DNA of 34,699 nucleotides from Vicinamibacteria bacterium (GCA_022821235.1 JAJEEA010000326.1:1-34699); one strand, 5' to 3'; positions 18,858 to 22,284 are shown, counted from the stretch's first letter. Program-made: numbers and translations. The notes: generated from the sequence alone by a model not told the origin.

Positions 18858-19118
18858 GGCGGGCGGCCGTCAGTCGGGAAGTCCGTGGTGCGGGCAGCGG
18901 TGTCGGCGAGGCCTCCTGCGCACAAGCGTCCATGACTGCCAGACGTCTTCCGGCGCTCGAAGAGCACTCCGGAGTCCCCCGTGACAGGCATGGACGGGGC
19001 CATCGTATCGCATCGCGATCGGCCGGACAACGCGGTCACGGAGTCTCCGCCGCAGAGCGGTGCGCGCTCCGGGCGGGTTGAATGAGTGGGCGGATCGCAG
19101 CCGTGAGCGACCGTGCCC

Positions 19119-19140
19119 GCTATGCTGAGCTCTGCATAGC
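19119..19140. repeat. Near-palindrome abutting the RIT element
   Basis: GCTATGC and GCATAGC flank an 8-bp centre and end 4 bp before the left end of the element. Each arm matches the element's own 12-bp motif (ACTATGCGGAGT) at 9 of 12 positions. It may be the pre-existing insertion site recognised by the recombinases or a decayed further motif pair. Confidence 0.6.
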
Positions 19141-19144
19141 GGCA

Positions 19145-19176
19145 ACTATGCGGAGTTCCGGACTATGCGGAGTTGG
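19145..19176. repeat. Left terminal inverted repeat of the RIT element
   Basis: The repeat contains two direct copies of ACTATGCGGAGT at 19145-19156 and 19162-19173, 17 bp apart. A third copy in inverse orientation is internal at 19218-19229, where it touches the stop codon of the third recombinase. The right end has the mirror arrangement. Confidence 0.9.
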
Positions 19177-19228
19177 CTCGGCGGCCCGCGTTGACTCGGG
19201 GATTTGTCCGGAGCGGTACTCCGCATAG

Positions 19229-20230
19229 TCAGAGGCCTTCCAGGAAGTCGAGGAGCCGGTCGGTGGCGGTGAAGCGGAGCGGCTGAGGTGCGGGATCGTC
19301 GACGCGCCGGAGTGCCGCCTCCTTCATGGCGAGGTCGGCTTCGACGTACTGGTGGGTGGTGACGGGGTTCTCGTGGCCGAGCCAGAGGGCGATGACGGTG
19401 ATGTCGACGCCGGACTGTAGGAGGTGCATCGCGGTCGTGTGGCGCAGCGTGTGGGGCGAGATCCGCCGCGTCGCCAGCGATGGGTGACGCTCGGCGGCCT
19501 TTCGGCAGGCGACCCGCAGTTGATGCTCGACCCCGGAGCGCGACAGGGGCTTGCCCGCGCGATTGGGGAACACGGGGGCGTCGGGGGTTCCATCGATTCG
19601 GGGGAGCCACCTCCGCAGTTGCGCGGCGGTGCTCTTCCAGAGCGGGACGACACGCTCCTTGCGTCCCTTGCCGTGCAGAAGCAGCGAGGACGCTCGGTCG
19701 ACGAGCACGTCGGCGACGTGCAGCCGGGTGATCTCCGAGACGCGGGCGCCGGTGTTGTAGAGCACGGCGAAGAGGACGGAGTCGCGCTGCCCGCCCCAGG
19801 TGGACCGGTCGGGCGCGTCGATGATCGCCGTGATCTCGTCGCGGGACAGGTAGCCGAGGACGGGCCGGTCGAAGCGCTTGACGGGAATCGCGAGGACGCG
19901 TTGCGCGACGGGCAGCAGGGAGGGCTCGCGCAGCGAGGCGTAGCGCATGAACGACCGGATGGCGGTGAGCCGGAGGTTGCGGGTGCGCGCAGAGTTGCCG
20001 CGTTCGGCCTCGAGATGGTCGAGGAAGCCGAGGACCATGGGCGCACCGAGATCCGAGAGGGTCAGCGCCGAGGGAGTGCGTCCGGTGCGCTCTGCGGCGT
20101 ACCCGAGGAACAACGTGAAGGTGTCGCGGTAGCTGGCGATGGTGTGCGCGCTGGCGCCCCGTTGTGCGATGAGGCGCCCGTGGAAGAACTCCTGCAGGAG
20201 TGCGGGGAACGCCCGCTCGACGGAGGTCAT
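19229..20230 (-). CDS. Tyrosine recombinase, third gene of the RIT element
   Basis: The 333-residue protein is a phage-integrase-family recombinase. The N-terminal SAM-like core-binding domain (about 10-95) includes ASAHTIASYRDTFTLFLGY. Catalytic residues visible are the first arginine in NTGARVSEITRL, the beta-hairpin lysine in GKGRKERVVPL, HTLRH, LGH in ALWLGHENPVTTHQY, and the nucleophile tyrosine in that same segment (HQYVEA). The C-terminal tail (MKEAALRRVDDPAP...) resembles that of transposon Tn554-like recombinases. The ATG overlaps the preceding gene's stop in ATGA. It occupies the position called RitC in descriptions of RIT elements. Confidence 0.93.
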   Translation of the reverse strand: MTSVERAFPALLQEFFHGRLIAQRGASAHTIASYRDTFTLFLGYAAERTGRTPSALTLSDLGAPMVLGFLDHLEAERGNSARTRNLRLTAIRSFMRYASLREPSLLPVAQRVLAIPVKRFDRPVLGYLSRDEITAIIDAPDRSTWGGQRDSVLFAVLYNTGARVSEITRLHVADVLVDRASSLLLHGKGRKERVVPLWKSTAAQLRRWLPRIDGTPDAPVFPNRAGKPLSRSGVEHQLRVACRKAAERHPSLATRRISPHTLRHTTAMHLLQSGVDITVIALWLGHENPVTTHQYVEADLAMKEAALRRVDDPAPQPLRFTATDRLLDFLEGL

Positions 20231-21186
20231 GACGGGCGCTCCGACGCTCGGTGGGCGAAGCGTTCGAAACGCTGTCCGGTGCTGGCGAGCAACTCGGGGA
20301 CGGCGGTGCAGTACCAGTAGGTGTGGGCGACCTTGGCGTGGCCGAGGTAGGTTGCGAGAGCCAGGACCTTGCGATCCACATCGGCGCCTTCCTGGTACCA
20401 GCGCAGCAGCCGGCGGACGACGAAGCTGTGGCGAAGGTCGTGGATGCGCGGTTGGGACGTACGCCCTTGCGCGGTCCAGTCGAGACGCAGCTTGATCCGG
20501 CGGAACGTCGACTCCACCGCGGTGCGGGTGAGCCGGGGCGACTGCTCGGTGCGGAAGAAGTACTCGGACCGGGGCGCAGCAAGACACGCGTCACGGCGGT
20601 CGGCGTAGCGACGCAGTGCCCGGGTCGTGGTCGGATGGAGCGGGACGAGTCGGGACTTGCGGAACTTGGTCTCGCGGATGGTCAGGATGCCGTCGACGAG
20701 GTCGGCGTCGTTGGTGGTGAGATAGCGGGCCTCGGACAGCCGCAGGCCGGTCGACGCCAGCAGGGCGAAGAACGCGACATAGGTGGCGGGTCGCAACCCG
20801 CCTTGGGGCAGCAAGCAGCGTGCCTCCTGCAGGAGCGCGGCGATCTCCGCCTCGGTGTAGATGTGGGGCGTCGAGCGGCGCGTCGGGATGCGTCCCAGGA
20901 GCCCGACCGGCGGCACTTCGGTGGCCGGGTCGATGAGTGCGCGGTACCGGGCGAACTGCCGCACGATCGACAGTCGGCGTGCGGCCTGCACCGGATTGCT
21001 GGAGCGTGAGGAGGATCGTGCCCACTGGACCGCGAGCTCGATTGTCACGGGCCCGCTGTGTCCGATCCGTTCTGCATGGCGGGCGAAGTCCCGCAGGAAC
21101 CCTTCCTGCGTTTCGAGGCCGAAACCCAGTCCGCGACGCGCGTTGAGGTACTCGTCGACCAGATGATGGAAGCTGGGAGGCGTCAT
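20227..21186 (-). CDS. Tyrosine recombinase, second gene of the RIT element
   Basis: This 319-residue recombinase has the first arginine in STGLRLSEARYL, the lysine in ETKFRKSRLVPLH, HDLRH in RIHDLRHSFVVRRL, LGH in ATYLGHAKVAHTYWYC, and a candidate nucleophile tyrosine in TYWYCT. The insertion RWYQEGADVDRKVLALATYLG between the HxxR and LGH motifs is longer than in XerC/D. Both ends overlap neighbouring genes by 4 nt, so all three are coupled in translation. It corresponds to RitB by position. Confidence 0.93.
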   Translation of the reverse strand: MTPPSFHHLVDEYLNARRGLGFGLETQEGFLRDFARHAERIGHSGPVTIELAVQWARSSSRSSNPVQAARRLSIVRQFARYRALIDPATEVPPVGLLGRIPTRRSTPHIYTEAEIAALLQEARCLLPQGGLRPATYVAFFALLASTGLRLSEARYLTTNDADLVDGILTIRETKFRKSRLVPLHPTTTRALRRYADRRDACLAAPRSEYFFRTEQSPRLTRTAVESTFRRIKLRLDWTAQGRTSQPRIHDLRHSFVVRRLLRWYQEGADVDRKVLALATYLGHAKVAHTYWYCTAVPELLASTGQRFERFAHRASERPS

Positions 21187-22106
21187 CGGAGCACCTCCGG
21201 CCAGGGAAGCGCGACCTCACGCAACCGCGGCAGGTCGAGCTTGGCGTAGATCGTCGTGGAGTCGAGACTGCGATGGCCGAGCACGTCAGCGACCTCCTTG
21301 AGGCTGGCTCCCGCTCGCACCATGCGGCTGGCTGCCGTGTGCCGGAAGACGTAGGCGCTGGCGTGCGGCGCGTCGACTCCCGCCCGGCGAACCGCGAGTG
21401 TCGCGATACGCGAGACGGCAGGGCTCGAGAGCGGCTTGCCGCGACGATCTCCCAGGTGCTCGACGAACACCCGGCGTTCGTCGGTCGCCGGACGTTCCCC
21501 GCTCAGATAGGCGACCAGCGCCTGCCCCACACCGCGGGGCAGCGGCAGCACGGCGCCCCGCCGGTTCTTTCGGGTGCGTATCTGCAGGGTGCCGACGCGC
21601 CAGTCAATGTCGTCCAGACACAGGTCGGCCACCTCGCCGGGCCGCAGCCCCAGGGTCGCCAGGCACTGCACGATCGCCTGGTCGCGTTGCCCGCACGGAG
21701 TGGAGGGGTCGAACGACGCGAGCACTTGCTCGAGCTGTTGCTCGGTCAGAGAACGAGGCAGCATCGCCAGCCGCCAATGGGCAACGGTCGGGAGAGCCGC
21801 TTCGAGTGCGTCGCCGCAGAAACCCTCGACGCGCAGGAACCGGAAGAACGAGCGCAACGCTGACCGCGCGTCGATCATCGACGTGGGGCGGCGCCGGTGA
21901 CTCAACGACGTGATGAACGCCACCACGTCGGCCGGCGTCAGGCGGCTGGGGTCGATCGGGTCCGCGCCAAGAGCGGCCCGGACAAGCTTCCGGGCGAACC
22001 AAGCGCGTTTGCGCAACGTGTGAGGGCGCAAGCCGCGCGTACGTCGTTGGTGGTGCGTGTATGCGTCGACGAGGCGGTCGACGGTCCACGAGCCGTGAAC
22101 GGTCAT
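21183..22106 (-). CDS. Tyrosine recombinase, first gene of the RIT element
   Basis: The 307-residue protein starts at the ATG at 22106, 6 nt after AAAGGAG. It has an N-terminal core-binding domain (VDAYTHHQRRTRGLRPHTLRKRAWFARKLV) and a catalytic domain with the arginine in ATLGLRPGEVADL, a basic hairpin RTRKNRRGAVLPL, YVFRH, LGH in VADVLGHRSLDSTTIYAKLD and the tyrosine in TIYAK. The HxxR histidine is replaced by tyrosine (SAYVFRH), a change seen in many active recombinases. Its ribosome binding site lies in a strong hairpin. It corresponds to RitA by position. Confidence 0.93.
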   Translation of the reverse strand: MTVHGSWTVDRLVDAYTHHQRRTRGLRPHTLRKRAWFARKLVRAALGADPIDPSRLTPADVVAFITSLSHRRRPTSMIDARSALRSFFRFLRVEGFCGDALEAALPTVAHWRLAMLPRSLTEQQLEQVLASFDPSTPCGQRDQAIVQCLATLGLRPGEVADLCLDDIDWRVGTLQIRTRKNRRGAVLPLPRGVGQALVAYLSGERPATDERRVFVEHLGDRRGKPLSSPAVSRIATLAVRRAGVDAPHASAYVFRHTAASRMVRAGASLKEVADVLGHRSLDSTTIYAKLDLPRLREVALPWPEVLR

Positions 22107-22148
22107 GGGATGCTCCTTTCCGGCCCATCAGGCCGGACAGAGCATCCC
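22107..22148 (-). promoter_or_regulatory. mRNA hairpin covering the ribosome binding site of the first recombinase
   Basis: Plus-strand GGGATGCTC (22107-22115) pairs with GAGCATCCC (22140-22148), and inside it TCCGGCC (22119-22125) pairs with GGCCGGA (22131-22137), with a 5-nt loop and an unpaired CTT/CA interior. In the mRNA the Shine-Dalgarno AAAGGAG is in the 3' arm and the ATG begins at the foot of the stem. Such a structure should repress translation initiation of the whole coupled operon. Confidence 0.75.
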
Positions 22149-22225
22149 AAACTATGCGGAGTACCCCGAACTGGTCAGCTCACGTAACCCTCGTTCTGAC
22201 AGGTACTTGAGAACAAGACCCTCCA

Positions 22226-22257
22226 CCGACTCCGCATAGTCCAGAACTCCGCATAGT
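22226..22257. repeat. Right terminal inverted repeat of the RIT element
   Basis: It is the inverse of 19145-19176 with two mismatches. It holds two inverse copies of the 12-bp motif (22229-22240 and 22246-22257, again 17 bp apart), and a third copy in the opposite orientation is internal at 22151-22162, next to the hairpin. Confidence 0.9.
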
Positions 22258-22284
22258 GCCCAGGTTGTCGCCGCCAAGTCGCCG

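Follow-up and report, generated by a model that had tools for sequence, protein, structure and literature searches.

A RIT transposon of a Vicinamibacteria genome extends beyond its inverted repeats to a 20-bp palindrome and probably moves as a circle with two equivalent 6-bp joints

Comparison of a three-recombinase RIT element from a Vicinamibacteria bacterium with some 40 relatives revealed the extent of the unit that moves, sites without insertion, a 6-bp duplication, a 20-bp palindrome (P20) on one side of the element or the other, and a solo copy of P20. Judging from these sequences, we are fairly confident that this RIT transposon has a mobile unit made up of P20, an inner 6-bp spacer and the element proper (E), and that it would move by a 6-bp staggered tyrosine-recombinase crossover through a circle with two equivalent joints. 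The window, that is, the whole 34,699-nt stretch of DNA that was analysed (GCA_022821235.1, JAJEEA010000326.1:1-34699), is contig C421 of a 552-contig, 6.6-Mb assembly, and the named relatives of this genome are Vicinamibacterales MAGs. We write the structure of an insertion as f-O-P20-I-E-D-g, where O, I and D are 6 bp each. The features of the window copy are as follows:

19114..19119, no strand: outer 6-bp spacer O, TGCCCG, the left copy of the 6-bp target duplication, 5/6 identical to 22257-22262
19120..19139, no strand: P20, 20-bp palindrome CTATGCTGAGCTCTGCATAG, 9/10 pairs, arms matching the inner tip repeat t2 at 9/10 positions, within the mobile unit
19140..19145, no strand: inner 6-bp spacer I, CGGCAA, between P20 and the ritC-side tip, an offset kept in 29/33 elements
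19146..22256, minus strand: element proper E, 3111 bp
19146..19156, plus strand: t1, ritC-side tip repeat CTATGCGGAGT
19163..19173, plus strand: t2, ritC side, direct copy 17 bp further in
19218..19228, minus strand: t3, ritC side, inverted copy right after the ritC stop codon
19229..20230, minus strand: ritC, tyrosine recombinase of 333 aa, catalytic residues all present
20227..21186, minus strand: ritB, tyrosine recombinase of 319 aa, ATGA overlap with ritC
21183..22106, minus strand: ritA, tyrosine recombinase of 307 aa, short form, ATGA overlap with ritB
22152..22162, plus strand: t3, ritA side
22229..22239, minus strand: t2, ritA side
22246..22256, minus strand: t1, ritA-side tip repeat
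22257..22262, no strand: distal 6-bp spacer D, TGCCCA, the right copy of the target duplication; the sequence beyond it aligns to the insertion-free locus of genome G001

A preliminary description of this DNA had recognized three intact tyrosine recombinases, two ATGA overlaps and 32-bp inverted repeats, all of which we confirmed in the sequence. The ritA, ritB and ritC reading frames contain no internal stop and meet in an ATGA overlap at each of the two junctions; ritA is preceded by an AAGGAG ribosome site. All three proteins match Phage_integrase (PF00589, E 5e-23 to 1e-33) as well as XerC/XerD/XerA structures, and R, K, R, H and Y are kept in each. The HxxR histidine of RitA is replaced by Tyr252, as it is in every close relative down to 59% identity; because the replacement is common to the whole branch, it is a character of that branch and not a sign of decay. 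A tblastn comparison showed each gene to be homologous to the RitA, RitB or RitC of trios from other phyla, in the same order. The assignment to RIT elements in the preliminary description is thus borne out by the ritA-ritB-ritC trio, the catalytic motifs, the inverted repeats and the homologous gene order. As in the RITs of Cupriavidus metallidurans CH34 and others (Van Houdt 2009/2012; Ricker 2013), the overlapping trio stands in the same order with ATGA overlaps; terminal inverted repeats and insertions in IS66 transposase genes are further points of likeness (PMC2864759, PMC3414803). Unlike those elements, the window copy encodes a RitA of 307 aa that lacks the additional N-terminal domain seen in the 394-413 aa proteins and has Tyr in place of the HxxR histidine. 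In an alignment with plasmid RitAs, it is the N-terminal segment of the long proteins that is absent from the window RitA, and absent likewise from the Thiodictyon RitA; the window copy belongs to a short-RitA branch. A RitA with two sequential core-binding domains and a RitC with an extra C-terminal helix have been described as general to RITs (PMC8138268), and the window RitA does not have this two-domain form. The two-domain RitA is, however, a later structural generalization that stands outside the founding definition (three overlapping recombinase genes with inverted repeats), by which the window element is a RIT: it has an overlapping trio, the catalytic motif in all three proteins, terminal inverted repeats and an E within about 3-3.5 kb.

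The inverted repeats (19145-19176 and 22226-22257) are 32 bp long and 94% complementary. Within and beside them the 11-mer CTATGCGGAGT occurs three times at each end, as the tip t1, the direct copy t2 and the inverted copy t3, the last lying ~72 bp inside on the ritC side and ~94 bp inside on the ritA side; Vicinamibacterales, Planctomycetota and Gemmatimonadota relatives have the same t1/t2/t3 layout. The last outward base of each 32-bp arm is already part of a variable 6-bp spacer, which puts the true tips at 19146 and 22256. Further out lies P20 (19120-19139), which had been overlooked when the boundaries were first described, and spacer I together with the arms on both of its sides has the form of a YR-type core site, arm-6-arm. 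By comparison with the relatives, the mobile unit is P20 + 6 bp + E (19120-22256), set between the 6-bp near-duplication TGCCCG/TGCCCA. The spacers of the window copy agree in part, O with D at 5/6 positions and O with the reverse complement (rc) of I at 4/6.

P20 was counted in 33 RIT elements with a recognizable inverted repeat, from hosts among the Acidobacteria, Planctomycetota, Gemmatimonadota, Myxococcota, Desulfosarcina, Actinobacteria and alpha-, beta- and gammaproteobacteria. It was present at the exact 6-bp offset in 29 of the 33, where 7-10 of the 10 pairs are complementary; among background 20-mers, 8 pairs are reached by about 0.1%. The palindrome is one-sided in 27 of these 29 elements (ritA side 15, ritC side 12) and stands on both sides in two (G023:C34 and L048). 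These two, and the four elements with no P20 at the offset (G018:C3, G012:C228, L051 and L067), count against our model. The arms of P20 match each element's own t2 at 8.31/10 positions, against 6.86 when shuffled (0/10000); because the arms follow the t2 of their own element, P20 evolves with the element.

Spacer statistics were drawn from 29 elements, the 27 one-sided ones plus two (G136 and G028) read by hand. O agreed with D at 5.03/6 positions and with rc(I) at 4.86/6, whereas shuffles gave 2.0 (0/20000 for each comparison); O and I compared in the direct sense gave 1.5. In 12/29 elements I was exactly rc(O).

Several insertions could be compared with sites that lack the insertion. A second copy of the element in the same genome, C306, could be compared with uninterrupted repeats in the same-genus genome G002, where GTCGGAGTGCTTC-AGCCGA-TGTCGTTGCC corresponds to ...AGCCGA-[P20-TCGGCT-E]-AGCCGA... 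in the occupied copy. This target of the C306 insertion is a ~107-bp intergenic repeat present in about 25 copies in G002:C1 and C2 (for example L131-L134; AGCCGATGTCGTTGCC...GGGATTCGCACCCGC). In Ensifer canadensis, pT173b carries an insertion for which pT173e of the same strain has the empty site, with a single TTTCTC and no P20; Rhizobium hidalgonense compared with R. etli likewise gave an empty site without insertion or P20; and S. meliloti LMB1 pB compared with its own pA gave a site lacking both, whose uninterrupted sequence equals D (ACGGCA). Contigs C138 and C343 flank a single insertion, one on either side, because they are contiguous in same-genus G001, and there too the site has neither insertion nor P20. 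At the window locus both flanks align to G001, which has no RIT or P20, although the locus is diverged and contains extra sequence further right; G001 shows the absence of the insertion, and the exact join at the window site would follow by analogy with the other sites. Since the insertion-free sites lack P20, the palindrome is imported and is not part of the target. The recent arrival proposed in the preliminary description finds slight support in this absence from G001, but no identical copy is present in the genome, and intact frames alone give no date. A solo P20 was found on the genome's own contig C45 as CGCGCC-P20-CGCGCC, and these 26 bp are absent from four paralogous repeats; with its 6-bp duplication, it looks like a scar left after E was excised.

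From these arrangements we infer the following mechanism. The recombinases would join the outer P20 arm to the far tip, producing a circle whose joint would read ritC tip (t1')-N6-P20-N6-ritA tip (t1), in effect two core sites (arm-6 bp-arm) back to back. Either core site could then cross over with a 6-bp target, which would place P20 next to either the ritA tip or the ritC tip. The exchange would be staggered by 6 bp and its heteroduplex resolved, with one outer spacer coming from the target and the other from the circle; where target and circle have the same sequence, the two would match and resemble a target duplication. The inner spacer would be the relic of an earlier target. If the inner spacer crossed over with the far tip, E would be released by itself and a solo P20 would stay behind. 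A search for the P20-plus-tip pattern over 396 genomes of the phylum returned mainly junctions of the genome itself, and no circle or tandem joint. Extended to RIT transposition in general, the scheme would comprise a circle with a 20-bp palindrome between two interchangeable 6-bp joints, fixed polarity with free orientation, and an E that may leave alone and deposit a portable attachment palindrome; we lean only slightly towards this wider reading.

Joints could be compared between identical copies in one rhizobial lineage only (E about 3.4 kb, long RitA). E is identical (0/3398 mismatches) on several rhizobial plasmids, and the order of the joint, ritC tip-N6-P20-N6-ritA tip, is kept. S. meliloti LMB1 pB and pC both give ritC-ACCTGC-P20-GGCGGT-ritA, but opening at different joints has left P20 on opposite sides; two copies in R. 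leguminosarum ATCC 14479 give ritC-ACGAGC-P20-GCAGGT-ritA, again opened at opposite joints. In R. leguminosarum TP16, the same IS66 sequence holds E in one orientation on pRlX3 and in the other on pRlX4, with P20 toward the same target side, as it is in 7/7 insertions at this first IS66 site. At a second IS66 site, recognized from translated flanks by its GRKNW motif (L140, L056 and L145), the P20 side agrees in 3/3 while the orientations of the element differ. With P20 on the same side at both IS66 sites despite differing element orientation, target polarity therefore looks fixed and element orientation free. The rhizobial joint spacers ACCTGC, ACGAGC, ACGTGC, ACGGCA and ACCGCC all fit the codons of the IS66 site, which suggests that they were left over from targets used earlier. 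That one strain has identical copies on several of its replicons implies that a related element has moved recently.

The first reading of the locus, a plain transposon bounded by its inverted repeats with ends at 19145 and 22257, retains almost no credence. The 32-bp repeats on which its 'clean ends' were based are real, but every checked insertion includes P20 and six further bases, so that the true unit reaches beyond the ritC-side end; the empty site it predicted, joining 19144 to 22258, would strand P20 at the site and was wrong. With P20 and its spacer counted as part of the unit, the empty site would join 19119 to 22263. Annotation of RIT ends is corrected accordingly, to about 26 bp further out on one side, plus the 6-bp duplication. 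It is very improbable, too, that P20 was there before the element, as a REP-like or terminator palindrome that RITs target by inserting into it or next to it. Its palindromic form would suit such a role, as would the two elements with P20 on both sides (G023:C34 and L048), where it lies within longer inverted flanks, and the adjacency to an element of 4/5 P20 matches in the genome itself; yet insertion-free sites lack P20, its arms track the element's own t2, and identical elements at different sites have identical P20. We dropped P20 as target on the evidence of the G002 repeats and the same-strain plasmid sites, none of which has it. A 32-bp target duplication, considered on account of the same two-sided elements, was also dropped, as one-sided elements and empty sites show 6 bp only.

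Two further explanations concern the spacers. P20 and the inner spacer might be made anew at each insertion by foldback (hairpin) copying, the inner spacer being rc(target), and the elements in which I is exactly rc(O) would be expected from this; we nevertheless consider it quite improbable, as P20 and the spacers of the joint stay unchanged between sites in identical elements, the inner spacer of L063 and L149 is unrelated although O = D, and the P20 arms (those of L057, for example) do not copy t1. The idea that the inner spacer is copied from the target was dropped in view of the joint kept in identical rhizobial copies. A strand-biased copy-out as in SEs (strand-biased circularizing integrative elements), perhaps also Tn554, in which one strand is exchanged and the donor spacer always lies at the same end, would share with RITs the 6-bp spacer, left as a footprint in SEs (PMC10214605), the enzyme superfamily and the use of multiple recombinases. 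In identical rhizobial elements, however, the inferred donor spacer has no fixed end: L157, L158 and L189 have it on the side of P20, L188 and L191 at the far tip. We regard copy-out of this kind as unlikely, although the variation counts against the fixed end and not against replicative excision.

The proposed circle with two joints can be set beside known systems. GInt islands (ginABCD) also use several recombinases, and 6-nt staggered cuts with heteroduplex spacers resolving either way have been proposed for them (PMC5385486); unlike the window element, which has neither a fourth gene nor cargo, they have ginD, cargo DNA and no described palindrome. Between the tips we found three genes only and no counterpart of the fourth conserved gene of GInts or SEs (ginD/srap). 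SEs and Tn554 resemble RITs in that a 6-bp donor spacer is carried to the new site as a footprint (PMC10214605), but SEs have four core proteins and place this spacer at one fixed end, whereas the RITs compared here use either joint. In donor-spacer placement the identical rhizobial elements are unlike SEs with their fixed end (PMC10214605) and like GInts with their heteroduplex resolution (PMC5385486). A 2012 RIT paper mentioned a 28-9 bp inverted repeat with an 'overlapping palindromic sequence', giving it no role (PMC3414803); this one sentence is the only mention of palindromes in the RIT literature compared, which did not include the main RIT survey (Ricker 2013). Within that literature, Ricker 2013 aside, the two-joint palindrome layout would be new among tyrosine-recombinase transposons, although priority is uncertain. 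The same 2012 paper noted that three recombinases are hard to reconcile with a four-strand reaction and did not identify convincing binding sites (PMC3414803), and the authors of a 2023 paper knew of no laboratory-reproduced RIT transposition (PMC10214605). RIT elements are widespread, and the true unit, the core site (P20 arm-6 bp-tip), the 6-bp spacers and the apparently fixed target polarity turn their movement into a question that can be tested at the bench, on substrates and in strains that can now be named.

Further copies, which the preliminary description had proposed to seek in the source assembly, were found, none of them identical: C306 is a full copy (81%), C138/C343 a copy split over two contigs (93%), C60 a remnant and C98 a distant RIT. 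Given these copies and the insertion-free sites in relatives, the element is, by sequence comparison, mobile. The C60 remnant (G000:C60:5127-5413, L010) retains 263 bp of the ritA-side end and on its other side runs exactly up to the spacer and P20; the remainder of the element is lost. The distant RIT (G000:C98, L013:2659-6084) differs in its tip motif, TTATGACNAG, and has a P20 of its own, TTATGACCAGCTGGTCATAA, with spacers that are identical (CGCGGC). Genome-wide, five P20-like sites were found at <=2 mismatches and none with a reversed control pattern; four of the five adjoin an element end. The three genes in the same place across distant species without inverted repeats, the finding named beforehand as contrary to the RIT reading, were not encountered: the one related insertion common to another genus at the same place, that of C306, has its inverted repeats. 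This insertion (L009) lies at the same repeat in G012:C121/C202 (L137 and L138), in a different genus, and is either old or has moved together with its flanks. C138:1-139 and C343:1-138 both end about 138 bp inside the element, as assemblers do at repeated or polymorphic nodes; as a guess, this copy may be multi-copy, polymorphic or active.

Three relatives showed unusual arrangements. On a Myxococcaceae contig (L053), P20 and about 80 bp of the same flank stand on both sides of the element in inverted orientation and the contig ends there, either an assembly effect or an inverting element. S. meliloti pRRI128_3 (L192) has a longer hairpin, TTGGACTAACCCGCTCC...GGAGCGGGTTAGTCCAA, instead of P20, followed by a second RIT-like tip. 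On a Marinobacter plasmid (L139), a RIT apparently lies inside the recombinase gene of another RIT, and three more recombinase genes adjoin it.
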